A DNA stretch of 64,000 bases from Prochlorococcus sp. MIT 1307 (GTDB taxonomy: Bacteria > Cyanobacteriota > Cyanobacteriia > PCC-6307 > Cyanobiaceae). Position 1 is the stretch's first letter. Each line of letters opens with the position of its first letter. Location of the stretch: positions 1,612,001-1,676,000 of the forward strand of contig NZ_CP139301.1 of NCBI RefSeq assembly GCF_034092395.1, read 5' to 3'. The notes under the pieces are model-generated. The model did not search any database and was not told the origin of the DNA. It saw only the letters and a list, made by a program, of their open reading frames with translations. Positions 48,154 to 62,882 of this stretch are shown one piece after another. A program made the translations under genes and the position numbers.

Positions 48154-48633
48154 CTACTCTATTGGCTTGCCTAATCTTTCCATGAGATCATTGGCAGTTT
48201 TTTGTGAGATTGGCATGATTGAGAGTCTATTACCTTTACGGACAACTTGTAAATCTTCAGGCAAATATATATCTTTTAATTCCTCAAGACTCATGAATTT
48301 TTTAAATATTCCTATATATCTCATTTCAGTGCAATCCCACCGAGGACTATTGATTGATACCTTCGGGTCATAATATTTCGAATTTACATCGAATTGTGTT
48401 GGATCTATTACTCTAGTTTTAGTTACTTGCATCATTCCTACTATTCCTGGAGGCTTGCAGTTTGAATGATAAAAGAAAGCTTGATCTCCAATTTTCATTG
48501 AACGCATGAAGTTGCGTGCTTGATAGTTACGAATCCCATCCCATAGTGTCGTGACTTCTTTTTTGAGTTGACTGATGCTGTATGCCTCTGGCTCACTCTT
48601 CATTAGCCAATACGAGATATTTTTGTCAGCCAT
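48154..48633 (-). CDS. EVE-domain protein
   Basis: 159 aa single-domain EVE (PUA-like) protein, related to human THYN1. Motifs: SYWLMKSEPEAYSISQLKKE, TTLWDGIRNYQARNFMR, DQAFFYHSNCKPPGIVGM and YDPKVSINSPRWDCTEM. EVE domains bind modified bases in nucleic acids, and are known fused to HNH or other nucleases in modification-dependent restriction; alone, the role is unclear. Its 5' end (MADKNISYWLMK) is the parent type for four remnants scattered downstream. First gene of the accessory region. Confidence 0.88.
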   Translation of the reverse strand: MADKNISYWLMKSEPEAYSISQLKKEVTTLWDGIRNYQARNFMRSMKIGDQAFFYHSNCKPPGIVGMMQVTKTRVIDPTQFDVNSKYYDPKVSINSPRWDCTEMRYIGIFKKFMSLEELKDIYLPEDLQVVRKGNRLSIMPISQKTANDLMERLGKPIE

Positions 48634-48676
48634 TGCGATAAAAGAGGTTAGAAAGCTTGTTAAGGGTTAGAGGCTT

Positions 48677-48698
48677 GCTCGAATTTTGCTGGAATTTG
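48677..48698 (-). promoter_or_regulatory. tandem 11-bp repeat upstream of the EVE gene
   Basis: GCTCGAATTTT followed directly by GCTGGAATTTG (+ strand), 44 nt before the EVE ATG on the minus strand. Related in spacing and GAAT core to the tandem pairs beside every EVE remnant in this region, though its sequence is less close. Confidence 0.5.
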
Positions 48699-48868
48699 AG
48701 CAAGTTTTCCCTTTCCCTATTTTGACTCAATTATCTGGTTTGAGCTTTTAGCTTTTGCAGTGCTTTGGGAGAATCATGTGGCAAGTTCTAGCCTCCCTTG
48801 TCCTGAAAGCCTTTTCAGTGACCGGCAAAATAAAATGTACCAAAAAGCTGATCTGCTAATAATTGGTT
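48699..48868. other. intergenic region before the J-domain/HNH operon
   Basis: 170 nt with a small inverted repeat CTGAAA-GCC-TTTCAG near 48813 and AT-rich flanks; probably holds the promoter of the J-domain gene. No RNA gene recognised. Confidence 0.4.
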
Positions 48869-49417
48869 ATGGCACCAAGGCGCAAGCGACTCTCTAAATC
48901 TCAAGTAATGGAGTTGATTACTCAGCTCAGGAGAGATGGTTTGTGGACGGATGAAGTCCTCTTTGATTTTGCTGAAAAAGTTAACGGTGCTCCATTTTTA
49001 GAACCAAAGAAAAAGCCAATGACCGCAGCGCAAGCCAAGTCAGCAGTTTTGCTGAAATTTGGATGTAGTAATGCCCTGGAGTTGAGAAAAGACAAGACAT
49101 TCATGATGTCAATGACTGGAGAGACTTTTGCGTTAAGAAGCCGAGAAGATTGGATGAAGCTCTATAGAAGATGGATCGGTGTTCCTCCTGAAGAGAGAGG
49201 GAGGATGGGGCCAACATGCATTAACGGAATTGATGTTTTAGAAAACAATCGGCCATGGCATATTTTTGGTTTGGATAGCAATACGGCTTCTAAAGAAGAT
49301 GTCAAAAAAGCCTTCAAGGCTTTAGCAAAGCTCCATCATCCAGATACTGGCGGCGACCCAAGAGTTTTTCAGCGTTTACATATGATGAAGGATTCCTTGA
49401 TAGCCCTCATGGATTAA
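48869..49417 (+). CDS. protein with C-terminal J domain
   Basis: 182 aa from ATG 48869 (an in-frame TTG lies two codons upstream). A basic N-terminus (MAPRRKRLSKSQV) and an uncharacterised middle (MTAAQAKSAVLLKFGC..., REDWMKLYRRWIGVPPEERG) precede a C-terminal J domain with HPD in KLHHPDTGGDPRVF. The inverted order, J domain last, is not that of DnaJ. It lies 18 nt before the HNH gene and probably shares its transcript. Confidence 0.75.
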   Translation: MAPRRKRLSKSQVMELITQLRRDGLWTDEVLFDFAEKVNGAPFLEPKKKPMTAAQAKSAVLLKFGCSNALELRKDKTFMMSMTGETFALRSREDWMKLYRRWIGVPPEERGRMGPTCINGIDVLENNRPWHIFGLDSNTASKEDVKKAFKALAKLHHPDTGGDPRVFQRLHMMKDSLIALMD

Positions 49418-49435
49418 CGACCTTTTAACTATCTA

Positions 49436-50497
49436 ATGAAGGATCTACTTACTGACAAAGAAACCGCAACTATTCTTGGTATTAGTAGACCAAGTCTCTA
49501 TAAGATTGTAAAGACTTTCGATTCAGATCTAACGGGCAAGTGGAAGCTTGAAGAAGGTAAAGATTTCGAATTTGTCACTAGGAATGGTAGACGCAGTAGA
49601 CGTGCTAGGAGATTTACAGAGGCTGGTGTTGAAGCTATTGCTGCTTATATAGAAAAAGATAAAAATGGTTTCCTAGACTTTATTAAAGAGCTTCTAACTC
49701 GAAGAAGGATAAAGAGAAAGAAAACTCTTGTTTCTCGCCGAATTACTCAAGAATTTGTTGAATCTGCTGAGGATTTTATCATTAAAAATGAATTGGCATT
49801 TGTTCCTAAGAAAAGCACTATTTACATCCTTCAAACTAATGGTATTGGATACAAAAATACTCTGGACCGTCTTCGTAAAGAAGGATCAGCAGAAGGACCA
49901 GAAGCACTTGAAATAGATAAGCATTTTGTGCTTATAGAAGAAGAAAGATTATGGAGTCAAAAAGGAATAGCCAGGATGGCAATTAACATGAGAGAGAAAT
50001 CCTCTGTGAAGAAATCAAGGGCTCGTACGGCTTGGATGGATGCAGTGGGATTGGTTGTAGAAGATTGCTTTAAAAGAGAAATAAAAAGACTAAAAGCTGC
50101 TCCTAAGAATATTGATAAAGCAATTTCAGCTGCAAAACGAGCAACAGGAGAAACCTGTGAGGTGACAGGGAGAAAAAGGACTCAAGGAAACAGGTTGCAA
50201 TTAGACGGACACCATTTGTTTGATAGGAATACTCGGCCAGACTTGGCTGATCTACATGAAAATATCTTGGTAGTTGAAGGCAATGTCCATTCAGATTTCC
50301 ATTCCTGGAAAGGAGCAGGGAAATGTGAACCTAAAGACTTTTTGGAATATCTAGATACTTGCAGACTTGATTTGGTTGATCTTGATGATTCTGCTTCAGC
50401 ACGAAGATATAACAAGCTTGTAGTTCGCCTAGAAAATCTCCAAAAGAACTTTAAAGATAATCACCTCAGGTATCAAGGAGATTTAATTAGGTATTAA
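49436..50497 (+). CDS. HNH-type nuclease with N-terminal HTH
   Basis: 353 aa. The N-terminus (LTDKETATILGISRPSLYKI) is a helix-turn-helix of the excisionase/MerR kind, followed by a very basic stretch (GRRSRRARRF...RRRIKRKKTL). The C-terminus carries an HNH-like core: CEVTGRKR, DGHHLFDR, ENILVVEGNVHSDFHSW. A metal-dependent nuclease function is inferred. The gene is the strongest candidate for a mobility or defence gene in the window; no attachment sites or second recombinase were found. Confidence 0.7.
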   Translation: MKDLLTDKETATILGISRPSLYKIVKTFDSDLTGKWKLEEGKDFEFVTRNGRRSRRARRFTEAGVEAIAAYIEKDKNGFLDFIKELLTRRRIKRKKTLVSRRITQEFVESAEDFIIKNELAFVPKKSTIYILQTNGIGYKNTLDRLRKEGSAEGPEALEIDKHFVLIEEERLWSQKGIARMAINMREKSSVKKSRARTAWMDAVGLVVEDCFKREIKRLKAAPKNIDKAISAAKRATGETCEVTGRKRTQGNRLQLDGHHLFDRNTRPDLADLHENILVVEGNVHSDFHSWKGAGKCEPKDFLEYLDTCRLDLVDLDDSASARRYNKLVVRLENLQKNFKDNHLRYQGDLIRY

Positions 50498-50565
50498 GCC
50501 ATTTTCTCCTAAAGACAAACGCAATGGAGAGCCCATTACAAGCGCTATTACTACTTCAATGCTCC

Positions 50566-50667
50566 TCATACTTCTTGAGATAACTTGAAAGCTAAGTAGT
50601 ACCGAACATCTTTAGCGATATCCAGGTTGTGATAGATGTAATTGAATATTTCTCGCCTATTTGCTTG
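50566..50667 (-). pseudogene. 5'-truncated small ORF after an EVE remnant
   Basis: A 33-codon open stretch without any start codon, product ending REIFNYIYHNLDIAKDVRY then YLAFKLSQEV, with natural codon use. It starts right at the second 11-bp pair of the 50.7-kb remnant and seems to be the 3' part of a small gene whose beginning was replaced. Not recognised as a family. Confidence 0.4.
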
Positions 50668-50812
50668 CTAGAATTTTGCTAGAATAGATTTACCGAGATC
50701 GCTCAGATCCATTGGTATCATTGGCTTGTAACTGTTCATTAGCCAGTAGTTTATTTCAGTCATGCCAAGGGATTAAGAGGAAAATACAGGGTTAGAATAA
50801 AGTTAGAATAAC
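50667..50812 (-). pseudogene. EVE 5' remnant, copy 1
   Basis: On the minus strand: tandem 11-bp pair (GTTAGAATAAA/GTTAGAATAAC, 50791-50812), then 27 nt, then ATG 50763 encoding MTEINYWLMNSYKPM, matching the EVE start MADKNISYWLMK, but leaving the EVE frame within a few codons. A second pair (GCTAGAATTTT/GCTAGAATAGA) lies at 50667-50688. Confidence 0.65.
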
Positions 50813-50919
50813 TACACTTTAGAGACAAAGGTTGCCTAGTTGGCGATCACTTTAAGAAGTGAAAATACCATCAAAGGAAAACTTGTTTGAACAAGCTTCT
50901 TGTCTGCTGACATTATCGC

Positions 50920-51108
50920 TCAATCCTTTCTCGTATGGATCTGACCGAAGAGCTTTTCTATGCGGAGTTGAATCGCATACATCTGAGTTCGATCAAAGAA
51001 AAATCTTTCGCCTTTGTTGTTCTTGACCGTTGTGAGGAGCACATAAAGCTGTAAACCCAAGAAGATGAGTCCAACTAGCAATAGAACTGAATAGGGGTCG
51101 CCAAACAC
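50920..51108 (-). CDS. 62-aa single-pass membrane protein, copy A
   Basis: Begins with a hydrophobic helix (YSVLLLVGLIFLGLQLYVLL), then a charged tail NNKGERFFFDRTQMYAIQLR. Not recognised by function. A second copy at 55090-55278 is about 85% identical in protein and similar in DNA, including the 30 nt upstream. GTG start in both. A short cyanobacterial small-protein family; duplicated within the accessory region. Confidence 0.65.
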   Translation of the reverse strand: MFGDPYSVLLLVGLIFLGLQLYVLLTTVKNNKGERFFFDRTQMYAIQLRIEKLFGQIHTRKD

Positions 51109-51408
51109 TGAATTTCTGATCTTCTGTGCACTTTCTTTTTAGCTATTTTAGTTGGCTCACTCCTGTGGAGTGGCAAGGATGATTGCTCCTTTGGTTAGTC
51201 TGTGAACTTTGCTGATAATTGGAAAGAGTTTTTATTGTTGTGATTTTTCTCTCATTTGGAGAGGAACAAATTAATGGTGGAATCGTTCCTAACTTGGTTG
51301 CATTCTGTTAGTTCCTTGGATCTTCAGTTATTTCGTTTTCACTGGAAAAATGAAAACTAGTATTTCTAAGTTATTTGTGACCCGTAAAGAAGACTAAGGA
51401 CTCTCTTC
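51109..51408. other. intergenic region, nothing recognised
   Basis: 300 nt, AT-rich, between the 62-aa gene and the lipoprotein gene. A possible 28-codon plus-strand frame (ATG near 51273) has no supporting feature. No RNA or repeat identified. Confidence 0.4.
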
Positions 51409-51786
51409 TTAATACCTAAATCTTTTCTCGACTTGCCAGTCGAGGTTACGGTCAATTAATCGACTTGGCGAATTTTCAAGCCTTTGATTCTCATTAAAAA
51501 CATAGGTTTGTCCAGCAACTCTGTTTTTGAGAATGAGTCCTAAGACCTGATTTGTTTCTAGATCTTTTTGACACTTCCTTAATGAAAAGGTATTCAACGT
51601 GTCTATAAAAACTTCTTTCATCTGATTTTTATTGTTATTTGTCTCTGGAATAGCCTTAATGATTCCGTTGTAAGTACCACCATCTTTGATCCATTTAGCG
51701 CAATCATATTGAGCTTCGTAGAAAGAAGGATATCCACAAGCGGAAAGAAAGCTTAGAGAAGCTATGGAGGCAATTGCATTTTTCAT
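51409..51786 (-). CDS. putative lipoprotein, 125 aa
   Basis: Signal peptide MKNAIASIASLSFLSACGYP with lipobox LSAC, so probably anchored in the outer or plasma membrane. The mature part (YEAQYDCAKWIKDGGTYNG) has no known domain. Its ATG overlaps the stop of the adhesin upstream (ATGA), indicating co-transcription; it may help export or anchor the adhesin (inference). Confidence 0.7.
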   Translation of the reverse strand: MKNAIASIASLSFLSACGYPSFYEAQYDCAKWIKDGGTYNGIIKAIPETNNNKNQMKEVFIDTLNTFSLRKCQKDLETNQVLGLILKNRVAGQTYVFNENQRLENSPSRLIDRNLDWQVEKRFRY

Positions 51787-54116
51787 TTGATGATTCTAAG
51801 TGCAAAGACGAAGATTCTGTTATGACTTGAGATTAGAAAGTTTTTCAGGCTTGATAATGGGTTGGATAAGTTAAGGGAAGTGAATATTGGTTTATTGTTT
51901 TTTTGAGAATTAAAAGCAATACGCTCAAGTTTGTCCAGCCGCTGATTCTGCTTATGGATTTGATTATTTTGCAGTGTAACTAAATCTCTAAGCTCTTGAT
52001 TGCTTAGCTTCATTTCTTTGCTTTCTAATTTGATTTTCCGATTGTTTTCTTTGATTCTCTTGTTGCTTGTTAAAAGAAGATTGACTTTGGATTGCAGTGC
52101 TTTTTTTTCATTCATGCTGATGAGAGTGCTTTCGTTGGGTTTTCCAAACTTGAAAACAAAACCAGCTTTAACAGCAACGTTATCTAAAGAGCCATTTCCA
52201 TAGTTTTCAGAACCACCATTAACATAGGAACCACCAAAGTTAAAATTAATTTTCTCATTGACTTTAGAGGCACAACCAACCCCAATTGCATAACTGCGGC
52301 TATAAGCACCTGAGCCGATACCACAACTAAATTTTGAATCAGTAGATGCTTGAGGTAAAGCTGTTAGAGCCGCTGATAGTGCAGTAGCTTTAGCTACTGC
52401 AGCTCCAAGATTATTAATGTTGTTTCTGTTGGTAGCAATATCTGATGTGTTGGTTGTCGTTTGAGCTGAATCGCTACCAGTAATCTCTGTTCCATTGACT
52501 GTCAATGTACCACTGACGACTAAATCATCATCAATAGTTGTTGTGCCACCAGCCGAATCGATGGTTAAGTTTCCAGAAGCGGTATCAATTTCATTATCAC
52601 CAGTCACACCAATTTGAACGTTATCAATACTGGCACCACCATTGGCATCTAAGGCTCCAGTTAATGTCGTTGCGCCTGTGACTCCTAAGATTCCTGATAG
52701 GGAAGTATTGCCGGTGACTTCTAAAGTACCCCCAACGTTTAAGTTTTTAGCAATACCAGCACCACCATCAACTTTTAAAGCACCAGTGGTTGAATTCGTT
52801 GATTGAGTGGTGTCATCAATATCTACATCACCGGAGACATCTAATGTACTGTTTAAAGTAGCAGCCCCACTAACAGCTAAATCATCATCAATAGTTGTTG
52901 TGCCACCAGCCGAATCGATGGTTAAGTTTCCAGAAGCGGTATCAATTTCATTATCACCAGTCACACCAATTTGAACGTTATCAATACTGGCACCACCATT
53001 GGCATCTAAGGCTCCGGTCATGGTTGTCGTACCACTAACAGCTAAATCATCATCAATAGTTGTTGTGCCACCAGCCGAATCGATGGTTAAGTTTCCAGAA
53101 GCGGTATCAATTTCATTATCACCAGTCACACCAATTTGAACGTTATCAATACTGGCACCACCATTGGCATCTAAGGCTCCAGTTAATGTCGTTGCGCCTG
53201 TGACTCCTAAGATTCCTGATAGGGAAGTATTGCCGGTGACTTCTAAAGTACCCCCAACGTTTAAGTTTTTAGCAATACCAGCACCACCATCAACTTTTAA
53301 AGCACCAGTGGTTGAATTCGTTGATTGAGTGGTGTCATCAATATCTACATCACCGGAGACATCTAATGTACTGTTTAAAGTAGCAGCCCCACTAACAGCT
53401 AAATCATCATCAATAGTTGTTGTGCCACCAGCCGAATCGATGGTTAAGTTTCCAGAAGCGGTATCAATTTCATTATCACCAGTCACACCAATTTGAACGT
53501 TATCAATACTGGCACCACCATTGGCATCTAAGGCTCCAGTTAATGTCGTTGCGCCACTTGCACTTAGCGTGGTAAAAGCACCAGTTGATACTGAGCTTGA
53601 ACCAATGGCAGTACCGTCAATTGCACCTCCATTTATATCAACACTAGAAAATGTTGAGGTACCAACAATAACATTTAAATCAGCTCCTATCGTTAAGTCA
53701 CTATCGAATTCTGCCATTCCTTTAATGGTTACATTATCATCAGCTCGACCAAGAACAATTTGATTTACTTTATCAGTCGTTGCTCCATATCCAATCGCTG
53801 TAGAGTAGCTATAACCTGCATTGGTATCACCACCCACTGCAGTAGTTCTTAATGCTGATGCAGTGGCGTTATAACCAATAGCAATTGAGTCATGACCGTC
53901 GACATCAGCTAAATTACCAATTGAAATTGAGTTATCACTGTCGACATCAGCTAAATATCCAATTGCCATTGAGTCATTCCCCGTCAAAGCACCAACAGCT
54001 CTTCCTGCGGAGGTAAAACTTTGAGGGATGTCGTTTGCGAATGATTTGTTTTGAGCAAGTGGCAAAAAGTTTGAGCCAAGTAAGGTAATTGCAAAAAATA
54101 TTGATTTGCTCTTCAT
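51783..54116 (-). CDS. YadA-like repeat-rich surface adhesin with post-barrel coiled coil
   Basis: 777 aa from ATG 54116 (a TTG two codons upstream is the other choice). Signal peptide (KSIFFAITLLGSNFLPLAQNKS). Residues ~40-140 are YadA-head-like repeats (SMAIGYLADVD, SIAIGYNATAS, STAIGYGATTD). A long beta-repeat stalk follows with four copies of an ~46-residue unit (DANGGASIDNVQIGVTGDNE ...). A YadA-anchor-like segment (ALSAALTALPQAS ... FKFGK) then precedes a ~60-residue coiled coil and a C-terminal hydrophobic tail, an unusual ending for a trimeric autotransporter. Confidence 0.8.
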   Translation of the reverse strand: MKSKSIFFAITLLGSNFLPLAQNKSFANDIPQSFTSAGRAVGALTGNDSMAIGYLADVDSDNSISIGNLADVDGHDSIAIGYNATASALRTTAVGGDTNAGYSYSTAIGYGATTDKVNQIVLGRADDNVTIKGMAEFDSDLTIGADLNVIVGTSTFSSVDINGGAIDGTAIGSSSVSTGAFTTLSASGATTLTGALDANGGASIDNVQIGVTGDNEIDTASGNLTIDSAGGTTTIDDDLAVSGAATLNSTLDVSGDVDIDDTTQSTNSTTGALKVDGGAGIAKNLNVGGTLEVTGNTSLSGILGVTGATTLTGALDANGGASIDNVQIGVTGDNEIDTASGNLTIDSAGGTTTIDDDLAVSGTTTMTGALDANGGASIDNVQIGVTGDNEIDTASGNLTIDSAGGTTTIDDDLAVSGAATLNSTLDVSGDVDIDDTTQSTNSTTGALKVDGGAGIAKNLNVGGTLEVTGNTSLSGILGVTGATTLTGALDANGGASIDNVQIGVTGDNEIDTASGNLTIDSAGGTTTIDDDLVVSGTLTVNGTEITGSDSAQTTTNTSDIATNRNNINNLGAAVAKATALSAALTALPQASTDSKFSCGIGSGAYSRSYAIGVGCASKVNEKINFNFGGSYVNGGSENYGNGSLDNVAVKAGFVFKFGKPNESTLISMNEKKALQSKVNLLLTSNKRIKENNRKIKLESKEMKLSNQELRDLVTLQNNQIHKQNQRLDKLERIAFNSQKNNKPIFTSLNLSNPLSSLKNFLISSHNRIFVFALRIIK
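52522..53015 (-). repeat. 494-bp direct repeat, copy 1 (in adhesin)
   Basis: This block recurs at 53044-53537 with almost no difference by eye. Each block holds two ~137-bp units at its ends (52522, 52879) separated by a 220-bp segment. Confidence 0.8.
53044..53537 (-). repeat. 494-bp direct repeat, copy 2 (in adhesin)
   Basis: Second copy, offset by 522 nt (174 codons, in frame). The 137-bp units start at 53044 and 53401. Such near-identity points to recent duplication or gene conversion, and predicts length variation between strains. Confidence 0.8.
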
Positions 54117-54178
54117 TCTCAAATTTTCAATTAATTATGTGCGCATTATGAGCCTTAAATCTAGAAAAGCTAGGACTT

Positions 54179-54556
54179 CTAGTTATTGGCTTTGAAGCTC
54201 GCTTTTTCTATGGAAAGTTCTTCATAAACTGCTTCTACAGGTTTCCATAAATATCTGCTTAGTGGAATCTTTGATTGAGTATCCACAAAAATGCCTTCGT
54301 GTTTCAACAAATCTGTTTGGATCCAATCAGTTCCCTCTCTACTAATTTTCATTGATACTTTGCCTTTGGCGTTGATTACTCGATGCCAGGGAATCGTCGA
54401 GGGCAAACTCAATCTCTTTAAAGACCAACCCACTTGTCTAGCGCATCCATATGAACCAATTAGTTCAGCTATTTGCCCATAGGTAGCGACTTGACCTAAT
54501 GGTATCTGTGAAACAGCTTCATATACCCGCAAATCAAAAGATTTTTTCACGGTCAT
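54179..54556 (-). CDS. alkyltransferase-like (ATL) DNA-binding protein
   Basis: 125 aa from ATG 54556 (longer frame to 54604 overlaps the upstream gene). MGMT fold: VYEAVSQIPLGQVATYGQIA, CARQVGWSLKRL and the active-site loop. The acceptor cysteine of PCHRV is replaced by tryptophan, W57 in IPWHRVINAKGK, so it cannot accept alkyl groups. ATL proteins bind O6-alkylguanine and hand it to nucleotide excision repair. It starts 4 nt after the acidic small gene. Confidence 0.85.
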   Translation of the reverse strand: MTVKKSFDLRVYEAVSQIPLGQVATYGQIAELIGSYGCARQVGWSLKRLSLPSTIPWHRVINAKGKVSMKISREGTDWIQTDLLKHEGIFVDTQSKIPLSRYLWKPVEAVYEELSIEKASFKANN

Positions 54557-54560
54557 TTCA

Positions 54561-54683
54561 TTAGACCTCCCAGTCGACTCCATCGTCATCTTCGTCGTAT
54601 TCATAATTCAGTAGAGAGTTCTCAACCTTTTCTTTGTTCTCTTCTTGATTGGCAAGAGGCATTTCTTCTTCCATTTTTACCAT
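54561..54683 (-). CDS. small acidic protein, ~40 aa
   Basis: From ATG 54683: MVKMEEEMPLANQEENKEKV with an acidic end NYEYDEDDDGVDWEV. The longer open frame to 54749 runs back into EVE remnant copy 2 and is not expected to be its own sequence. A cut-off paralogue end (DEGDDGIDWEV) lies at 62823-62882. Just upstream of the ATL gene, possibly translated together with it. Confidence 0.55.
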   Translation of the reverse strand: MVKMEEEMPLANQEENKEKVENSLLNYEYDEDDDGVDWEV

Positions 54684-54690
54684 TTCTCTA

Positions 54691-54835
54691 GTTTGGATAA
54701 AGTTTGGATAGAAATTCCTGATTCGCTGAGATCGCTTGATATCACTCAAAGGGAACTTTTCATTAGCCAGTAGTTAATTTCGCTCATTTGCTTGGTATAA
54801 CTAGAGTTTGAAAGATTAGAGTAAAATTAGAGTAA
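54691..54835 (-). pseudogene. EVE 5' remnant, copy 2
   Basis: Minus strand: pair GATTAGAGTAA/AATTAGAGTAA (54814-54835), then ATG 54787 encoding MSEINYWLMKSSL followed by a stop; beyond it SDIKRSQRIRNF resembles the EVE YSISQLKKE...GIRNY segment with deletions. Ends at a second pair, GTTTGGATAAA/GTTTGGATAGA (54691-54712), 8 nt before the ATG of the acidic gene. Confidence 0.65.
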
Positions 54836-55089
54836 CTTCAGCCTGAAACAAAGAGTATCAAGCGGATTTTGGAAGAATCTTGCCCAAGTCCATTATTACC
54901 CAAATGGCTCAATCTTTTACCTCAATGATTTCGTAGTAAGGACGGTCCTCATAGTCAGCATCTGAGCAGCACATATCGCCATAGATTTCTTCCAATAACT
55001 CATAAGCATCGTCATAGTTTTCAAACTCTTGAGTAGTGATCTCGTCCTCTTCTCCGTCGTGCCTAGTGATGCGGTATTTCATTCCAGCT
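54750..55089. other. interval with EVE remnant and one small gene
   Basis: 340 nt that contain part of remnant copy 2 and the 57-aa acidic gene at 54909-55082. The remaining ~70 nt show nothing. Confidence 0.6.
54909..55082 (-). CDS. small acidic protein, 57 aa
   Basis: Open frame too short for most lists: MKYRITRHDGEEDEITTQEF ... ENYDDAYELLEEIYGDMCC ... EIIEVKD. Strongly acidic with regular codon use and a CC pair. It starts 7 nt after the 62-aa gene copy B on the same strand, so likely co-transcribed. Similar short proteins occur in marine picocyanobacteria and phages; function unknown. Confidence 0.6.
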   Translation of the reverse strand: MKYRITRHDGEEDEITTQEFENYDDAYELLEEIYGDMCCSDADYEDRPYYEIIEVKD

Positions 55090-55278
55090 TTAATCCTTCC
55101 TCGTATGGATCTTTGCGAAGAGCCTCTCTATACGTAGTTGAATCGCATACATCTGAGTTCGATCAAAGAAAAATCTTTCGCCTTTGTTGTTCTTGACGAT
55201 CGAGAGAAGCACATAAAGCTGTGTACCCATGAAGATGAGTCCAACTAGAAGCAGCACCGAATAGGGGTCACCTAGCAC
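55090..55278 (-). CDS. 62-aa single-pass membrane protein, copy B
   Basis: Near-duplicate of 50920-51108: hydrophobic YSVLLLVGLIFMGTQLYVLL then NNKGERFFFDRTQMYAIQLR. GTG start. The 30 nt upstream (GTGCACAG...AATTCAGTG) are shared with copy A, suggesting the promoter or leader was duplicated too. Followed by the 57-aa acidic gene. Confidence 0.65.
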   Translation of the reverse strand: MLGDPYSVLLLVGLIFMGTQLYVLLSIVKNNKGERFFFDRTQMYAIQLRIERLFAKIHTRKD

Positions 55279-55463
55279 TGAATTTCTGATTTCCTGTGCA
55301 CTTCCTTCCTAGCTGTTTTGAGCAGATTAATTCTGGAAAGATTCCAGGTCCATTGAACAATACGCTTAAAGTTATTCACATAGCCGAAACTTATAGTGTC
55401 TAGATTGCCTAGATGCTGAGCCAATCTAAGTGACGATAGTTTGATATCAATAACTACAATTGA

Positions 55464-56504
55464 ATGTTTATTCGAAAAACATATTCTTCTGCAATTGCCA
55501 GTGCAATTCTTCTATTAGGCAGTGGACCTGCCAAAGCAGAATGGGATTTGTGGGGATTAATACAAGGTGATGGAGGAAATTCTCTCCAGATTTATACAAT
55601 TAATAGCTCGACAGGTATAAATGAACTAAGGGATACACTAACTGGTTCTAACTTGACGTATGACAATGAAAATACTTATATAAACCAAATTACAGGAGAT
55701 CCAACAGTATTTTTTGACGACGGCACATTAAGGTCATTTAACTTCGATACATCAACTTGGACGATTCAAAGTTCAAATCCTACTGATTATGATGGGGTGT
55801 ATCAACGTCAACTAATTAGGAAGAATGGGAATACATATAGTATTGGTCAGAATTCGTTAAACTTCGAAGAAACAAGTACTAAATTGAGATTGTGGGGGAC
55901 AAGTGGACCTGAGGGTAGTGGGAACGTTGTACCAATTGATATAACAAATGGCAGCAAGTTATTGATTAATGGAAGAGATGTTGAACAAGCAATAGATAAC
56001 GTCGGAGCATTAAGTGCTGCATTAACTGGTCTTCCTAATGTGCCGCAAGACTCACCACTTTCGTGTGGAGTAGGCACTGGAACACATAGCGCCAACTTTG
56101 CAGTTTCGGCAGGTTGCGCATCACGTATTAATGACCGTCTTGCATTCAATGCAGCGGCATCAGTCATTCCAAAGAATCAGGAATACCAAGGAATTGCCAA
56201 TGATGCTTGGTCCGGAAGACTGGGATTTGTCTTCAAGATCGGCAAGATCAATAAGCCGGCGATGCTAAGCGTTAAAGAGAAGAAAGAACTACAAGCGAAG
56301 GTAGGAGATCTGCAATCTGAGAACCAAGAAATGAAAGCTTCAAATGCTGAATTGAGAAATCTAGTCGCGATGCAGAACGAACGTCTTGAGAAGTTAGAGC
56401 GTATTGCACTAGTAGACAGTGATGAAAAGGAAAAGTATGGTTTATTCTTTAACTTATCGAACTTATTCTCTGGTATGAAGAGCTTCCTAATATCTTCCAA
56501 ATAA
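55464..56504 (+). CDS. secreted protein with YadA-like C-terminus and coiled coil
   Basis: 346 aa. Signal peptide MFIRKTYSSAIASAILLLGS cleaved around AKA. The N-terminal ~170 residues (WDLWGLIQGDGGNSLQIYT) have no known domain. C-terminal half parallels the 777-aa adhesin: ALSAALTGLPNVP, LSCGVGTGTHSANFAVSAGC, GFVFKIGK, then a coiled coil (QSENQEMKASNAELRNL) and a short hydrophobic tail. Divergent orientation relative to the adhesin; the two likely share an export or anchoring mode. Confidence 0.7.
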   Translation: MFIRKTYSSAIASAILLLGSGPAKAEWDLWGLIQGDGGNSLQIYTINSSTGINELRDTLTGSNLTYDNENTYINQITGDPTVFFDDGTLRSFNFDTSTWTIQSSNPTDYDGVYQRQLIRKNGNTYSIGQNSLNFEETSTKLRLWGTSGPEGSGNVVPIDITNGSKLLINGRDVEQAIDNVGALSAALTGLPNVPQDSPLSCGVGTGTHSANFAVSAGCASRINDRLAFNAAASVIPKNQEYQGIANDAWSGRLGFVFKIGKINKPAMLSVKEKKELQAKVGDLQSENQEMKASNAELRNLVAMQNERLEKLERIALVDSDEKEKYGLFFNLSNLFSGMKSFLISSK

Positions 56505-56604
56505 ATTGCTTGACTAATAAATAGGCTCCAGAGAAATTAAAGAGAATAAATCCAAAAAGGAGATAGATCGATTGGTATGATTACTTTCTTGGCTTGGCTA
56601 GTAC

Positions 56605-56682
56605 TTCATTAGCCAGTAGTTAATTTCAGTCATATCAAGGGGCTTGGGCGAAAATGGGCGGTTTGAATAAAGTTTGAATAAA
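56605..56682 (-). pseudogene. EVE 5' remnant, copy 3
   Basis: Minus strand: perfect tandem pair GTTTGAATAAA/GTTTGAATAAA (56661-56682), then ATG 56633 encoding MTEINYWLMKY and a stop. Downstream sequence CATACCAATCGATCT resembles that of copy 1. No clear second pair. Confidence 0.65.
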
Positions 56683-56711
56683 CCCTCGATCTCAGGGTCT
56701 TCATTGATTAG

Positions 56712-56987
56712 CTAGTTACCAAAACGATAGTGCTTACGAACTGCTTTATGCACTTCCCATTTACAAGACATTCCTGCAGGAAAAACAATTAGATCACCAA
56801 CTCCAAATCGGACAGGCTCACCTCCATCAGGGGTAACGGTCACATCACCTTCCAGCAGTAAGCAAGTTTCCTTGTCGCTATAGGTCCAAGGGAATGAACT
56901 GGGATCACAAGTCCAAATTGGCCATTGCTTGATCCCTAGCTCGTTGATTGTGCTTTCCGGGCAGGGGGAGGTGACTGAGATTGACAA
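56712..56987 (-). CDS. cupin-domain protein
   Basis: 91-aa cupin_3-type barrel (DUF861-like): WPIWTCDPSSFPWTYSDKET, LLLEGDVTVTPDGG, FGVGDLIVFPAGMSCKW. The metal-ligand histidines of classical cupins are largely absent; E and C residues take those places. Small-molecule binding is likely but ligand unknown. Isolated gene in the accessory region. Confidence 0.78.
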   Translation of the reverse strand: MSISVTSPCPESTINELGIKQWPIWTCDPSSFPWTYSDKETCLLLEGDVTVTPDGGEPVRFGVGDLIVFPAGMSCKWEVHKAVRKHYRFGN

Positions 56988-57099
56988 CTAATTTTCTAAA
57001 GCTAACTGACTTTCTAGCTGATATCAGAAGTATTGCCCTTGTTTGGGTTGGATTGTTTAGGCAGTCAAGTTTGTGAGCTGCTTTATTAATAGTCACTTC

Positions 57100-57604
57100 C
57101 GTTTAATTCCCTGGGCCAATGTTTTTTAGGAGGCTCTTCGACATCTGTCCAGATAATAACTAGCTCAAGGTTTTCTTTTTAAGACTGTTTTGTTGAACCA
57201 CGATCAACGAGGACACGTTGGTTTTGAGAAGCTTTACTAGCGAGAGGAATAAAAAGGTGCGGGTGTGTATATTTCAGTCCCTTTATTTGTTTTGTAAGAC
57301 CGTTCAATTCCCCAATCTCTTTCTGAGATTTTGATTTCAATGGCTCCCTTAGGTATAGGTAGAGAGGCCATACGCGCACGATCCATTAATGAAATTGCAT
57401 TTATATCCTTTTAATTGATTAATACCTCCAGGCCAAGTTCATAAATTACACTTTAGTGGTTTATTTGTACGAGTTTCAATCTTTGGTAATTTAAATGGCT
57501 AAGAATCAAATCTAAAGTGAATGATTAAAGATCATTGAGAAGTTGAAAAGTGTTTATCTTATACACTTCGATGTAAAGCAAGATATATGCAGCTTATTTG
57601 AATC
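57100..57604. other. gene-poor interval
   Basis: About 500 nt, AT-rich on the right. Its only coding-like content is the possible frameshifted small gene at 57178-57386; 57400-57604 has nothing recognisable apart from a likely promoter for the 180-aa gene. Confidence 0.4.
57178..57386 (-). pseudogene. possible frameshifted small gene
   Basis: From ATG 57386 the frame reads MDRARMASLPIPKGAIEIKI ... GTEIYTPAPFYSSR then TAG at 57237; shifting +1 near the T-run continues as LASKASQNQRVLVDRGSTKQ. Both parts have natural codons, so one ~66-residue gene may carry a single-base frameshift near 57250. Family unknown; alternative is two chance frames. Confidence 0.35.
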
Positions 57605-58147
57605 ATGAGAGAATATATAAACCAATTAAATAAGCATATGGGCCCACAGAATGATAAAGAGATCATGGTTGAGTCTCTAGAGAATCCAGTAGAGGAAACT
57701 TCTGACAATGAATCAAATGAAAAAGACTTAGTTGAATCATTTATTCAGGTCGACGAAAATAAAGACGAGTTTGAATTCATTTATAATCAAATAGAGAATG
57801 CTTTTACTAAGAATAATGATAATAAGGAATTGTTGTTCCCAATGCCAAGGAAATGGATCGGCCCTCGCCTTTTTGCACCTTGGATATTCCCGATCTTTAT
57901 TGCTAGGAAAACAATTGAATTCATAAAGTCTGATAACTTTATCAAGCCTTATAGTAGAAATCTATATAAAGTTAAGGGAGTAGAAACTATTTACACATCT
58001 ACAAAAAAAACTTTTGATGGCTCAGATCAGATGAGATTCATGGGCCCTCGCTTCATGGCAATCTGGGTACTGCCAATGGCTATTACTGGAACAATAATGG
58101 AATTTCTATTTGTGAGTCCCTTGAGGAATATTAATCCCTTTAGTTGA
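57605..58147 (+). CDS. hypothetical protein with duplicated GPR-W-P motif
   Basis: 180 aa, not recognised. Acidic N-terminal ~75 residues, then two matching segments: KWIGPRLFAPWIFPIFIARK (followed by TIEF) and RFMGPRFMAIWVLPMAITGT (followed by IMEF). Each has the pattern GPRxxAxWxxP then EF about ten residues on, and is moderately hydrophobic, suggesting two membrane-associated hairpins. Single gene in an AT-rich setting. Confidence 0.6.
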   Translation: MREYINQLNKHMGPQNDKEIMVESLENPVEETSDNESNEKDLVESFIQVDENKDEFEFIYNQIENAFTKNNDNKELLFPMPRKWIGPRLFAPWIFPIFIARKTIEFIKSDNFIKPYSRNLYKVKGVETIYTSTKKTFDGSDQMRFMGPRFMAIWVLPMAITGTIMEFLFVSPLRNINPFS

Positions 58148-58371
58148 TGACTAGAAGTCATTTGGGCTGTTACTTGTCTTTGCTATAAAAATATACGACA
58201 AGCAGTTCTTACACAGTGATGCAACATTGACTATTAAGACTAATCTGAGATTATAAAAATAGTTTGAATGGAGCTTTGCTTTTGTCATTAACAGTCAGTA
58301 CTTGTGATTTAAAATATTAGATTAATCAGCTCAACTATTGCTAAAAGTGCATATTTATTACGGCAACGTAT

Positions 58372-58400
58372 AAAAAAGCCCTGCTAACAGCAGAGCTTTT
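58372..58400 (-). terminator. rho-independent terminator of pcb
   Basis: Minus-strand hairpin AGCTCTGCT-GTT-AGCAGGGCT (9 bp with one G-U pair) followed by TTTTTT, 30 nt after the pcb stop. Confidence 0.85.
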
Positions 58401-58431
58401 AACGGATGGCTAATTTTAGTAGGGATTTAAA

Positions 58432-59496
58432 TTAACTACTTGTAGTTGGGTTTGCGTTGTCCATACTGTCGAAGGCTTGCCCAATGCGACGGAAATCAAA
58501 TCCCATGGCTCTTAAGGCATGCCAAAGATGACCTTGAATGAAAAAGAATCCAAGATAGAAATGGGCATTTGATAGCCATGCTCTAGCTGTAAAAGTTCCT
58601 TCTGCGAGAGAAGTGTCAGTGTCGACAAAGTAAGGGGCGAAATCGAAATTAAGCTTGAGCAGATCACCATATAGTTCAACTGGATAGATTGTGCTATTTG
58701 TTGAACACCAGAATGAAGCGACTAAAGCCATATAGCCAACACCTGCACAAGCCCACGCAAGATTCGCTTCTGCAGAAAGCAGCCCTTTGCCTTTAAATTC
58801 TGTGTAATTACCAAATTGCTTAGTAAAGATGTGAAAAATAGCCCCAGCACTTAAGAAAAATGCTAAGAATGCATGTCCTCCCATTACATCTTCCAAGTTG
58901 TCAATAGCAAGGAAATCAACCTGTTGATTCCAGATCATCCCTAGATCAAGGTTGTAGCGAATCGTACGGGTAACACCTGCAGCCGAGTCCCAAATCCCAT
59001 GGTATTTGGCCCATTCAACAAATGAAACACATCCGAGAGCTAAAAAAAGTAGATGATGGCCAAGGATGAAAGTAAGCCTATCGGGGTCATCCCATTGAAA
59101 GTCAAATTTTCTAGGCCTACTGCCTTCTGGATAATCTCCTAAATCTCCTTTGTATCTCAATGAGTGGAGGAGGCCAGCGGCTCCGTACACAGCTGAGACA
59201 ATGAGGTGGAGAACGGCAACTACTGTTATTGAATAGGACTCAGTAATTACTGCGCCACTTTCAATTCCTCCAATGCCAAGGCCAGCCAAATGTGGCAAAA
59301 GAATTAGATTCTGTGTTCCCATTGGCAGGGAAGCATCGTAGCGAGCAAGCTCAAAAAGGGTTAATGCCCCAGCCCAGAAACACATCAAGCCAGCATGAGA
59401 GACATGAGCAGCGATGAATTTTCCTGATTGGCTTGGCAACCTTGAGTTGCCCGCATACCAGTCATACGTGACATTTGGGTTCCCGTAGGTCTGCAC
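58432..59496 (-). CDS. pcb: Pcb divinyl chlorophyll a/b-binding antenna protein
   Basis: 354 aa, six helices, CP43/IsiA-type light-harvesting protein of Prochlorococcus. N-terminal MQTYGNPNVTYDWYAGNSRL, conserved chlorophyll-ligand histidines in AAHVSHAGLMCFWAGA, ILGHHLLFLALGC, DVMGGHAFLAFFL and FYLGFFFIQGHLWHALRAMG. The large CP43-type lumenal loop between helices 5 and 6 is absent, as in all Pcb. Which pcb paralogue cannot be told. Own promoter and terminator. Confidence 0.95.
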   Translation of the reverse strand: MQTYGNPNVTYDWYAGNSRLPSQSGKFIAAHVSHAGLMCFWAGALTLFELARYDASLPMGTQNLILLPHLAGLGIGGIESGAVITESYSITVVAVLHLIVSAVYGAAGLLHSLRYKGDLGDYPEGSRPRKFDFQWDDPDRLTFILGHHLLFLALGCVSFVEWAKYHGIWDSAAGVTRTIRYNLDLGMIWNQQVDFLAIDNLEDVMGGHAFLAFFLSAGAIFHIFTKQFGNYTEFKGKGLLSAEANLAWACAGVGYMALVASFWCSTNSTIYPVELYGDLLKLNFDFAPYFVDTDTSLAEGTFTARAWLSNAHFYLGFFFIQGHLWHALRAMGFDFRRIGQAFDSMDNANPTTSS

Positions 59497-59925
59497 GTGA
59501 TAATAATCAAATTACTTATTTAATATATTTATGGTTGTAAAATATTAATTATGCACTTAACATGATTTATCCCTGAAGTAGTATTTATTCGATGTTTTTA
59601 TATCATTTGAGACTTATATACACATCCAAGTTATACAATCGTATTCTTTGTAAGTGTACCTATTCGAAATAGGTTGGAGTTGCTAAGAGAATACTCCTAT
59701 CCTTATGAGAAAGAAAAAGCACCCTATTTGAAGGGAAATAGAAAGTTTTGATACTTGACTCTCAGAAAAACTATACTCTTTTCTCAATATCTAATGTGAT
59801 TTGTGCCGCTTTTTGGTATTATCAATTAACCTAAATGATAAATCACAGGTCTAGACTTCTTGTTTTGGCTAGTAGATTTTTAATTCTAGATAAATTTAAC
59901 TAACTTTTGGATTGTGCCCAAGCCC
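59497..59925. promoter_or_regulatory. pcb upstream region
   Basis: 429 nt without genes, holding the pcb promoter and leader. An inverted repeat ACCTATT-CGA-AATAGGT lies at 59658-59674. No other feature recognised. Confidence 0.5.
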
Positions 59926-60327
59926 TCAAGACAATACCCTGACGAAATTAAAGCCACTTTGCAGTCCATAAGTTAATAGGATAAATGAAGTAATCCCAAT
60001 ACTTATTAGAAGTCCAGTATAAAGTCTATGTACGTTATAGTCATCTTCTATTGGGCTAAAATCTGCAATTAAGATTGATTTTCTTTTGTATTTGGACCTG
60101 TCGAATAAACTGCTTTCCATATTTGATGGCCTTAAAGCCCCTTCCTCAAATGAAGAACGCGGGGAACTGTTTATCAGCTTTTGGGCGGTACTAGTAGCTA
60201 ATCTATTCTCACCATTGGCCCTAAATATTCTTGGAAACATATCCGCATGCCACATGGCAATTACAGAAACCCAGAAGATTATGCTTAGTCCACTGATGCC
60301 AAAAAGAAGATCTTTAAAGAGTTCCAT
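59926..60327 (-). CDS. hypothetical two-helix membrane protein, 133 aa
   Basis: Not recognised. Hydrophobic helices at ~7-27 (LLFGISGLSIIFWVSVIAMW) and ~105-125 (YTGLLISIGITSFILLTYGL) flank a charged loop with SSPRSSFEEGALRPSNME. Divergence from known photosystem subunits is clear. It lies upstream of pcb on the same strand with a 61-aa membrane ORF further upstream. Confidence 0.6.
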   Translation of the reverse strand: MELFKDLLFGISGLSIIFWVSVIAMWHADMFPRIFRANGENRLATSTAQKLINSSPRSSFEEGALRPSNMESSLFDRSKYKRKSILIADFSPIEDDYNVHRLYTGLLISIGITSFILLTYGLQSGFNFVRVLS

Positions 60328-60379
60328 TTTTATTATTTGAAAGTGATAAGGAATTGTTGATTAGAATAAAAACTCTACT

Positions 60380-60565
60380 TCAATTCTCTTCAACGGTAAT
60401 TGGTTCAACCTTGTGGTTTGTGCTTTCTTTATTAGGAGCAGAAAGCTTTTTAAAGCTATAAAACTTGCTCCTATAAATTAAAGCAAATATCAAAAATGAG
60501 CCAATAGCGACTGGTTGATGATAAGCGATGGAATGGTTAAACAACTGAATTTCTTCGGCTGACAT
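60380..60565 (-). CDS. hypothetical single-helix membrane protein, 61 aa
   Basis: Begins MSAEEIQLFNHSIAYHQPVA with one helix (IGSFLIFALIYR) and an acidic, basic-mixed tail ending PITVEEN. Same strand and 52 nt before the 133-aa gene, so possibly one transcript. Not recognised. Confidence 0.5.
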   Translation of the reverse strand: MSAEEIQLFNHSIAYHQPVAIGSFLIFALIYRSKFYSFKKLSAPNKESTNHKVEPITVEEN

Positions 60566-60782
60566 TACATTAGTTTTAAATGCTCTAATGATTATTATCT
60601 AACACATAAGAAGTTTAAGAGTAATAAAATATCTGCTTTCAAGTAATATCCAATGCATTTGTCAGCTCAATTTGATCGCCTTGTTCATAATGTAAAAAAT
60701 AATAGTTGCAGTTGTCTCAATAATTACGTGAGATTTTGGCTACTTGCTGTATTAATAAAACCTATTATTCAGACAAAAATCA

Positions 60783-60890
60783 ATGAATTTATTTGCTGTT
60801 ATTTGTGGAATTATTGGATCAGCTTGCTATCTTGCTTTCTTTATCGGTGGTCGACGAGATAGCGATGGCCAAGGAACGAACATGTCCTAA
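60783..60890 (+). CDS. small membrane peptide, 35 aa
   Basis: MNLFAVICGIIGSACYLAFF then IGGRRDSDGQGTNMS: one transmembrane helix and a polar end. Size and shape resemble small photosystem or cytochrome subunits, but no named family fits. Weak evidence, frame confirmed only by codon use and hydrophobic pattern. Confidence 0.4.
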   Translation: MNLFAVICGIIGSACYLAFFIGGRRDSDGQGTNMS

Positions 60891-61052
60891 ACCCCATGAA
60901 GAATGAAAGTTGCTGGTCATGAATTTAGAGCTGATATTTACCTATTCCAAGCCCTTCCTAGTGATTTGATATGTCATTGCAAAATTCGTCTTCTAAAGGT
61001 TTTTGTCCGTTCCTTTTATCAAGATGACAACTAAGTCACGAGTCTTGGTCAT

Positions 61053-61424
61053 TTAATCAGTAAACATTCCATCTACTGACAGCTCTCTTCTTGTCTCTGG
61101 CGATGGGTATTGCCGGTAATACAAGACCATTCCACCGGTCAGAGTTATAGCAATCAGTATCCAAGCAATCAAAGATTTCTTTTTGCTAGGAGTCTTTGGT
61201 TTCATTGCCCTTGGTTTGGTTTGCATCTCAAGGAAAGAGCCAGTCACTTGGATGAGATCCCAGATCTCATCTCGGTTATATGAAGACAAGTTTTTCCCTG
61301 GTACCCCACTCCCTTCTTGTAACCCTTTGGCTTTCATTTTTGCTCTTATTAATGCTTTCCTCTCAGTACTAGACATTGCCTTGAATCGTTCTTTCCTTTC
61401 TTCATTGCTCTCTTTAGTTGCCAT
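61053..61424 (-). CDS. hypothetical single-pass membrane protein, 123 aa
   Basis: Basic N-terminal half (NEERKERFKAMSSTERKALI, DEIWDLIQVTGSFLEM), a membrane helix at ~86-103 (SLIAWILIAITLTGGMVLYY) and a short tail. Not recognised. Its ATG (61424) lies 40 nt after the second 11-bp pair of EVE remnant copy 4, which may supply its promoter. Confidence 0.6.
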   Translation of the reverse strand: MATKESNEERKERFKAMSSTERKALIRAKMKAKGLQEGSGVPGKNLSSYNRDEIWDLIQVTGSFLEMQTKPRAMKPKTPSKKKSLIAWILIAITLTGGMVLYYRQYPSPETRRELSVDGMFTD

Positions 61425-61463
61425 ATCTATTGCTTTCTTTTGTCGAATTTCATCATTTCTCTA

Positions 61464-61608
61464 GTTTGAATAAAGTTTGAATAGAAATTCCTGATTCGCT
61501 GAGAACGCTTGCTATCACTTAAATGCACTTGTTCATTAGTCAGTAGTTAATTTCAGTCATATCAAGGGATCTCAGGGAATTGCAGTGTGTGAATACTGTG
61601 TGAATGAA
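61464..61608 (-). pseudogene. EVE 5' remnant, copy 4
   Basis: Minus strand: pair GTGTGAATACT/GTGTGAATGAA (61587-61608), then ATG 61560 encoding MTEINY and a stop in place of the Trp codon (TGG to TGA). Second pair GTTTGAATAAA/GTTTGAATAGA at 61464-61485; the ~50 nt before it (TTCTCAGCGAATCAGGAATT) are shared with copy 2. Confidence 0.65.
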
Positions 61609-61730
61609 ACATGGCCGATGTTTTTATTGTCTCGCAGAATGATCCTGGCGGGATTGAATGACTAGTTAGATCATTTTGACTAGATAATTTTTTCATAGCC
61701 AATATTTGGTATCCGTTGCTACCATTTCTG

Positions 61731-61800
61731 TACGTTCGTCCCTTGGCTGGGATGCATGTTTTGGCAGCAGGGAACGGGGCTGTCACTTCGGAGGAACGTC
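61731..61800 (+). promoter_or_regulatory. three-stem leader, candidate glutamine-riboswitch class
   Basis: P1 ACGTTC (61732-61737) pairs with GAACGT (61794-61799); P2 GTCCC/GGGAT (61738-61742/61749-61753); P3 TGGCAGC/GCTGTCA (61762-61768/61779-61785). The ending CGGAGGAACG is close to the CGAAGGAACG of glnA/Downstream-peptide RNAs, and the ribosome site lies in the P1 3' strand. The middle loop deviates from the consensus, so the assignment is tentative. Confidence 0.5.
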
Positions 61801-61965
61801 ATGAACACTCTCCCATTAATTCGCTCGCACATCAAAAAAGCAGAAAGGCTTCACCAAGCTCAACTTGCTGCTACAAAAAATGGAAACTTTATTTCTTATA
61901 GGCCTTCTGTTTTTCAAGAAAGGCAAAAGCAAGCTCGTGAAGAAGTCGCAGCAATGGATTCTTAA
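61801..61965 (+). CDS. small basic protein, 54 aa
   Basis: ATG 61801 follows GGAGGA at an ideal distance. MNTLPLIRSHIKKAERLHQA ... QLAATKNGNFISYRPSVFQE ... EEVAAMDS: basic, helical, no membrane segment. Downstream-peptide RNAs are known to precede short genes like this in marine Synechococcus and Prochlorococcus. A role in nitrogen regulation is inference from the leader. Confidence 0.7.
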   Translation: MNTLPLIRSHIKKAERLHQAQLAATKNGNFISYRPSVFQERQKQAREEVAAMDS

Positions 61966-61997
61966 TTCACAATTGAATTGTTGACAGTCGATCGCTA

Positions 61998-62022
61998 GGG
62001 GGCAATTAGCCCCCCTTTTTTT
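61998..62022 (+). terminator. rho-independent terminator
   Basis: GGGGGC-AATTA-GCCCCC with seven T residues following, 33 nt after the 54-aa gene stop. Strong; makes the small gene a self-contained unit. Confidence 0.93.
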
Positions 62023-62076
62023 ATTCAATTCAGCCCTAAACCTCCGATAGCTTGCGTTGAAGGTTTGTCGTGAGGA

Positions 62077-62487
62077 ATGGATCTCTCCAGTGTAGAGAGA
62101 CATCTTGGTGTTTCCTTAACTCCTGTTCAGAAAGATGTGAATAGGGGTCTTTTTGAAGTTAGAGATTTTCAGATGAGCGGTTTACCTGTGAATAGTCTTC
62201 GTGTTCGAGTTGAAGACAAGGATGGCTTGAAACAGCTTGCTTATGAAATGGACTATGAAAACATGATGGAAGTATTGGCAGGCTTACGACATCGTTTTGG
62301 TCCTCCGGTTGGAACAAGCGTTGATGTTGACGGAAGATCGCCTCAACAGCAATGGATTTGGCATACAGGAGAAGATGTAATTACTGCAGTCAAGAGTGAA
62401 CAAAGACCTTTCTTACTTTCTTATCGACCATCCCGTTTAGACCCTTCTTTCCTTTGCAAATGTGTGGATGGTGTGTGGATGGCTTAA
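62077..62487 (+). CDS. hypothetical protein, 136 aa
   Basis: Not recognised. Soluble, mixed: MDLSSVERHLGVSLTPVQKD, VEDKDGLKQLAYEMDYENMM, LRHRFGPPVGTSVDVDGRSP, WIWHTGEDVITAVKSEQRPF. Well-behaved codon use and ordered sequence suggest a real folded protein. Single gene after the terminator. Confidence 0.65.
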   Translation: MDLSSVERHLGVSLTPVQKDVNRGLFEVRDFQMSGLPVNSLRVRVEDKDGLKQLAYEMDYENMMEVLAGLRHRFGPPVGTSVDVDGRSPQQQWIWHTGEDVITAVKSEQRPFLLSYRPSRLDPSFLCKCVDGVWMA

Positions 62488-62822: not shown

Positions 62823-62882
62823 TTAGACCTCCCAGTCGATACCATCGTCACCTTCATCGAATTCTGATAGGCGACCTTTTAT
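62823..62882 (-). pseudogene. 3' remnant of the small acidic gene
   Basis: Minus strand frame IKGRLSEFDEGDDGIDWEV ending TAA at 62823, paralogous to the end of the 54561-54683 gene (DEDDDGVDWEV). It follows the HTTM gene stop directly and in the same frame and has no start, as if an insertion replaced its 5' part. Confidence 0.6.

Follow-up and report, generated by a model that had tools for sequence, protein, structure and literature searches.

EVE-derived repeats in Prochlorococcus as compound recombination sites of a probable accretion array of small integrative elements

The dispersed copies of the EVE gene 5' end in a Prochlorococcus genome are compound recombination sites, the scars of gene packets slotted one after another in front of the EVE gene, and the region that holds them appears, with a probability of roughly 85%, to be an accretion array of small integrative elements formed at the 5' end of EVE by site-specific recombination. 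This reading draws on the anatomy, spacing and orientation of the sites, on the EVE gene at the end of the array, on arms that match element by element and on units that have moved from core to core, all of which were established by comparing sequences. The agent is probably a lambda-type tyrosine integrase, to judge from a shared design of arm sites and from an integrase-derived protein (IntN) encoded in the arrays; it would act in trans, and EVE would presumably still be expressed after an insertion. Apparently this is a common and undescribed route of gene exchange in Prochlorococcus, the ocean's most abundant photosynthetic bacterium, where the swapping of niche genes in a streamlined genome with few transposons and rare prophages is a long-standing question. 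The EVE locus offers a concrete and testable place of exchange across much of the Prochlorococcus group, with borders of the exchanged units marked by sequence and a cargo that includes a Pcb antenna gene and surface adhesins. The short DNA pattern makes a catalogue of cassettes possible in thousands of single-cell genomes, and IntN, a conserved integrase-derived protein without the catalytic domain, has a role open to assay.

The window, the whole 64-kb stretch of DNA analysed (G000:C1:1612001-1676000), lies within the 2.03-Mb single-contig genome of Prochlorococcus sp. MIT 1307. Its intact EVE-domain gene (48154..48633, minus strand; Pfam EVE E=9.6e-51) is the anchor and downstream end of the array and the inferred attB target, and wherever an EVE gene was found in a genome it was single. 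An earlier note on this DNA had described four minus-strand ATGs (50763, 54787, 56633 and 61560) opening frames that begin like EVE, and both these and the intact gene lie where it placed them. The high identity it saw among the four copies is borne out by a 23-nt core that matches at 22/23, 23/23, 23/23 and 22/23 positions (at 50757, 54781, 56627 and 61554); the note saw this core only, and missed two tandem 11-bp pairs around it at fixed distances. The dispersed element it suspected is real, tied to the EVE gene and located in accessory DNA, no transposase lies near the copies, as it had said, and further copies occur elsewhere in the same genome (G000:C1 1683397(-), 1684895(-), 71447(+) and 94270(+)).

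The core, GAAATTAACTACTGGCTAATGAA, consists of EVE codons and is present at every border. On the minus strand, a complete site begins with an 11-bp tandem direct pair; about 30 nt follow, the last of them a start codon, and then come the core, about 48 nt and a second pair. Among 118 sites from 35 loci, scanned with a motif tuned on these same sequences, the left pair begins at a distance of 52, 53 or 54 nt ahead of the core in 12, 27 and 21 sites, with none at 50, 51 or 55-57 nt. The right pair begins 71 or 72 nt past the core start in 48 and 7 sites; single sites have it at 69 and at 70, and no other spacing occurs within the ranges searched. The two 11-mers within a pair are nearly identical, while the pairs vary among sites (TATTCAAACTT, TATTCTAACTT, CATTCACACAC, TATTCTAGCAA and others); the arm repeats are direct, not inverted, and the core is flanked by short inverted repeats. 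An ATG in the EVE frame is found in the left half of 109 of 141 sites, as against 8 of 282 for the other two frames, and 103 of those 109 ATGs are placed exactly 2 or 4 codons upstream of the EVE codons. No core with at most four mismatches arose in twenty base shuffles of the window, and tandem 11-bp pairs of this kind number 11 in the window against 0 per shuffled window.

In the window itself the sites follow one another on the minus strand. Upstream of EVE lies the tandem pair AATTCCAGCAA AATTCGAGCAA (48675..48696), 22 nt beyond the usual distance and so 75 nt, not 53, from the core; the same holds in one other genome (G005, L077), and a local rearrangement may be the cause. Site c1 has a left pair TATTCTAACTT TATTCTAACCC (50789..50810) 53 nt before its core GAAATAAACTACTGGCTAATGAA (50735..50757, 22/23) and a right pair TATTCTAGCAA AATTCTAGCAA (50665..50686) 71 nt after the core start. 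In site c2 the pairs TACTCTAATTT TACTCTAATCT (54813..54834) and TATCCAAACTT TATCCAAACTA (54689..54710) enclose a perfect core (54759..54781, 23/23), and site c3, with left pair TATTCAAACTT TATTCAAACCG (56659..56680) and again a perfect core (56605..56627, 23/23), has a right arm that is degenerate at its expected place near 56535-56556. Site c4 joins a left pair CATTCACACAG TATTCACACAC (61585..61606) and a right pair TATTCAAACTT TATTCAAACTA (61462..61483) through a core (61532..61554, 22/23) whose mismatch creates a TGA stop in the EVE frame. Farther upstream, a remnant without a core consists of the left pair CATCCACACAC CATCCACACAT (62460..62481, minus strand) fused to the right flank of a 757-bp cassette, which in the window is a degraded single-gene cassette (61555..62481, minus strand; 757 bp in G004 and G010) with a cargo frame at 62077-62487 on the plus strand; a deletion between arm repeats seems to have removed its upstream core.

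These sites divide the array into elements, all set on the minus strand. The one from c4 to c3 (56628..61554) has identical TTCAAAC heptamers in the arms of both ends and carries the Pcb chlorophyll-binding antenna gene (58432-59496; TIGR03041, 4.7e-153) and a cupin gene (56712-56987; Cupin_3). The next, from c3 to c2 (54782..56627), encodes a YadA-anchor protein (55464-56504, plus strand) and two small ORFs; that from c2 to c1 (50758..54781) encodes a 779-aa YadA-like repeat adhesin (51783-54122, minus strand) and an alkyltransferase-like protein (54179-54604, minus strand); and that from c1 to EVE (48634..50757) encodes a 353-aa HTH protein (49436-50497, plus strand) and a DnaJ-like protein (48869-49417, plus strand). 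Some smaller features of this stretch may be recorded here. The 779-aa YadA-like protein contains near-identical internal 300-nt repeats, with the second YadA-anchor gene nearby. A 228-nt repeat, 87% identical between 50922-51149 and 55092-55319, encodes a 62-aa protein beside c1 and c2 and has a relative in the array contig of another genome (L044:2710-2898), and a 42-nt repeat, 88% identical between 54561-54602 and 62823-62864, falls where a small ORF encodes its acidic C-terminus. A Glutamine-II riboswitch-like match on the plus strand (61730-61784) scores 32.3 bits against a gathering score of 33, and IsrR, the isiA antisense RNA, has a match below threshold (58923-59094, plus strand) that lies antisense to the Pcb (IsiA-like) gene.

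In the mechanism we propose, each element would carry an attP-like site made of a left arm, about 30 nt with the start codon, a core of EVE codons, about 48 nt and a right arm. A tyrosine integrase supplied in trans would recombine this core with the 5' end of EVE, the point of exchange probably falling within CTACTGGCTAATGAA, and so the element would insert upstream of EVE while EVE would receive the start region and left arm of the newcomer. Later insertions would stack to build the array, so that in each dispersed copy the right arm of one element would meet the left arm of the next, and EVE codons would recur in the copies because the elements, targeting the EVE 5' end, bring the same stretch with them as their core. 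If each interval holds one inserted element, the ends of an interval should match each other and the two arms of a single site should not. At the two ends of an interval, where the right arm belongs to the site upstream and the left arm to the site downstream, the arms indeed agree at 6.61 of 8 against 6.13 when permuted (P = 0.00025, n = 28; P = 0.002, n = 25, with three redundant intervals removed), and the left and right arms of the same site do not (5.97 against 5.97 permuted, P = 0.48, n = 27). The idea that the copies are debris or templates of one amplified element is thus contradicted by the arm-match test, each copy being the junction of two different integrated elements. In several intervals, c2 to c1 among them, the arms of the two ends plainly differ, and so some intervals are composite or decayed.

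The same arms bear on a regulatory origin, according to which the 11-bp pairs are response-regulator sites duplicated together with promoters by homologous recombination. Head-to-tail 11-bp repeats do resemble OmpR/PhoB-type boxes and the left pair does stand upstream of a start codon, but the right pair follows a short frame that is non-functional, the arms vary among copies yet match within an element, and pairs of the same kind flank integrase genes with unrelated sequences, all of which makes such an origin very unlikely.

Movement of whole units, as expected of an accretion array, is shown by comparison of genomes. The 118 core-to-core intervals span 332 to 6138 bp, and eight pairs of them are homologous between contigs over at least 75% of both members, at 76-97% identity, with no homologous neighbours (at most 9% covered). 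The EVE genes of the compared genomes are 67-77% identical, below the 76-97% of the cassettes, and so the cassettes travel between genera. In the clearest case a 757-bp unit with one gene for a 160-aa secreted protein, running opposite to the sites, is found in G004, G010 and G038 at 89-92% identity, and between the G004 and G010 copies similarity turns to dissimilarity at the cores.

The sites also keep a single direction. Within the 24 array contigs, 112 of the 114 sites lie on a shared strand, and in 49 loci retrieved by the pattern 27 further sites are upstream of EVE on the EVE strand and 1 is downstream; in complete genomes the EVE positions agree with the downstream end of the array. 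A left arm at 52-54 nt is found at 17 of 24 EVE genes of the Prochlorococcus type as against 0 of 15 from genomes of at least 2.2 Mb, and in the scanned array loci no EVE gene has a right arm. An exception is G033, whose sites at 233-239 kb run against the direction of its EVE gene and of its other sites; this is the only genome with EVE-type sites pointing both ways around EVE (G033:C2 218-256 kb; L111, L233, L418), through an inversion or an assembly error. With units and direction both in hand, a MITE-like origin, in which non-autonomous copies with a captured EVE 5' end were spread by a transposase, can be judged extremely improbable: many dispersed copies do share a common core, and an element of that type fits with there being no transposase nearby, but the arms, which keep a set distance to the core, are direct and not terminal inverted repeats, what moves is the stretch between two cores rather than the one between the arms of a single copy, and random transposition would not place nearly all copies upstream of EVE in one orientation.

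A 107-nt query, searched genus-wide and beyond, matched 6 of 8 genomes of the genus and 152 of 400 genomes of the family, in 33 of 59 genera, and among the matches listed all positive genomes but one are of about 2.0 Mb or smaller. A pattern scan of genome contigs gave only Prochlorococcus or Synechococcaceae records among the matches listed.

Arrays of one orientation at a fixed locus, with units mostly of 0.4-6 kb and down to single-gene cassettes, are what integrons have too, and a system of cassettes with folded single-stranded attC sites gathered by an integron integrase would account for them. It is nevertheless highly improbable here, since the strands of seven sites fold no better than shuffles (z −1.8 to +1.8), the conserved core is EVE coding sequence and not an attC box, and the gene of the 757-bp unit opposes the direction of the sites; moreover NCBIfam cut-offs do not class the integrases in and near the arrays as integron integrases, those of the family fall far below the XerA/integron cut-off, and a PF00589 match is absent from the array of the window. 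In place of IntI and a folding attC, the EVE arrays have lambda-like compound sites. An RNA element was likewise rejected, on the same folding result and because no Rfam family matches at the sites.

The probable accretion of integrative elements before EVE has closer parallels elsewhere. The SXT/R391 ICEs insert in the 5' end of prfC, replace its start region and can form tandem arrays, and so share with the EVE elements the insertion at a protein-gene 5' end with replacement of the start region; unlike the EVE elements they are large and conjugative, have their own integrase and no mini-cassettes. In Dehalococcoides many tandem islands lie at the single-copy tmRNA gene ssrA with direct repeats of the target at their borders, and several of them have no integration module, which is explained by accretion (PMC3146451). 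Tandem units at one single-copy gene with target repeats at the borders are thus common to both, but there the recombinase is the serine recombinase DsiB and the target an RNA gene, whereas the EVE array sits at the 5' end of a protein gene with relics of tyrosine integrases, has a core with paired 11-bp arms and includes units down to 757 bp. The CIMEs related to ICESt1 are described, in work cited by the same source, as att-bounded units without recombination genes that accrete in tandem and are moved by helpers (PMC3146451); compared with that account, the EVE arrays consist of many very small units at one gene, are group-wide and include a conserved integrase-derived N-terminal protein. 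Tycheposons, as that source describes them, also build islands in Prochlorococcus and carry cargo, but they border tRNA genes and carry tyrosine recombinases (PMC10872708), whereas the EVE array targets a protein gene, carries no intact recombinase in the window and is, by the tRNA criterion of that description, not a tycheposon: neither the 64-kb window nor array loci L009 and L044 contain a tRNA. Borders that directly repeat the target end, an intact target at one end and movement of whole units, which are marks of an accretion array, are found at EVE. The novelty here rests on the EVE target, the compound sites with a portable start codon, the small and numerous units across Prochlorococcus, and IntN. 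A 48-bp island repeat was reportedly noted by Coleman in 2006. That nothing had been described, as the earlier note believed, agrees with the literature in so far as nothing was found that joins EVE with attachment sites in Prochlorococcus; the repeats may have been noticed before, and a mention in Hackl 2023 or Coleman 2006 is possible.

As to the recombinase, tyrosine integrases of the Cyanobiaceae have tandem 11-bp pairs next to int on its upstream side, and another pair often stands 183-222 nt beyond, a design which, as read from sequence, looks the same as that of the EVE sites and of lambda-type arm sites. Such paired repeats beside many Cyanobiaceae integrases (loci L119-L178) could permit the automatic calling of attP arm sites. 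The arrays hold relics of integrases, mostly in the orientation of the sites; besides fragments they contain IntN, which has no catalytic domain, and one candidate integrase with catalytic residues near sites (L055). Integrases exist in the genome of the window, none tied to an EVE-type site, and among about 90 integrase loci none combined an intact integrase with the EVE core and these arms. Three candidates were set aside. INT85 has a site about 160 bp away in four assemblies, but it is not taken as the cognate enzyme because its far border has no core and its own 11-bp repeats differ; a conserved 386-aa recombinase of the genus is placed between housekeeping genes without 11-bp arms; and the G000 integrase at 87479-88765, like its relatives, differs in its arms and lacks the EVE core. 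A 1.8-kb unit of an integrase and an EVE-type site is about 99% identical in four genera (L179:11366-13150, L180, L181, L182), and neither its far border nor the 11-bp repeats of its own (TTGTCCTAAAA) bear any relation to the EVE core.

IntN is an open frame of about 215-237 aa equal to the N-terminal half only of a tyrosine integrase, ending at the linker that precedes the catalytic domain. It is found in 31 genomes in all and in five arrays (L009:7933-8607, that is G000:C1:1683933-1684607, minus strand; L042:4194-4886, L048:11516-12202, L104:11179-11841 and L113:2730-3377), and in about half of 30 loci it starts 276-299 nt after a site core. Across genera it is 72-100% identical and under purifying selection, with a median dN/dS of 0.20 over 351 pairs. 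Its full-length homologues, 35-39% identical, are Synechococcus-type integrases with a tRNA directly upstream in most of nine loci. No family in Pfam, NCBIfam or PHROGs matches IntN, and it was not found in IMG/VR or INPHARED. An AlphaFold2 model (mean pLDDT 79.9) gives a three-stranded sheet and a helix followed by a helical bundle, a predicted fold as expected for arm-binding and core-binding domains; a Foldseek search of the PDB gave no significant match, and so the domain reading rests on the homology (35-39%) and on the order of secondary structures. From this domain content we would guess that IntN may silence, license or direct the reaction.

A wider picture, tentative and rather doubtful at this stage, is a cassette-exchange system in which cassettes of one to a few genes with lambda-type compound sites would be kept at EVE and a shared integrase would move them in trans; IntN, a domesticated integrase N-terminal half, would be the arm- and core-binding factor controlling insertion or excision, and capsid-encoding islands with the same site a possible vehicle. 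EVE-type sites were not found in IMG/VR or INPHARED. In the genome of the window, one EVE-type site with a perfect right arm (L010:9462; G000:C1:71447-71552) lies between a module of a major head protein and primase and a DnaB helicase gene, with a tRNA-Pro some 7 kb away, and this region is a phage- or satellite-like element bearing an EVE-type recombination site.
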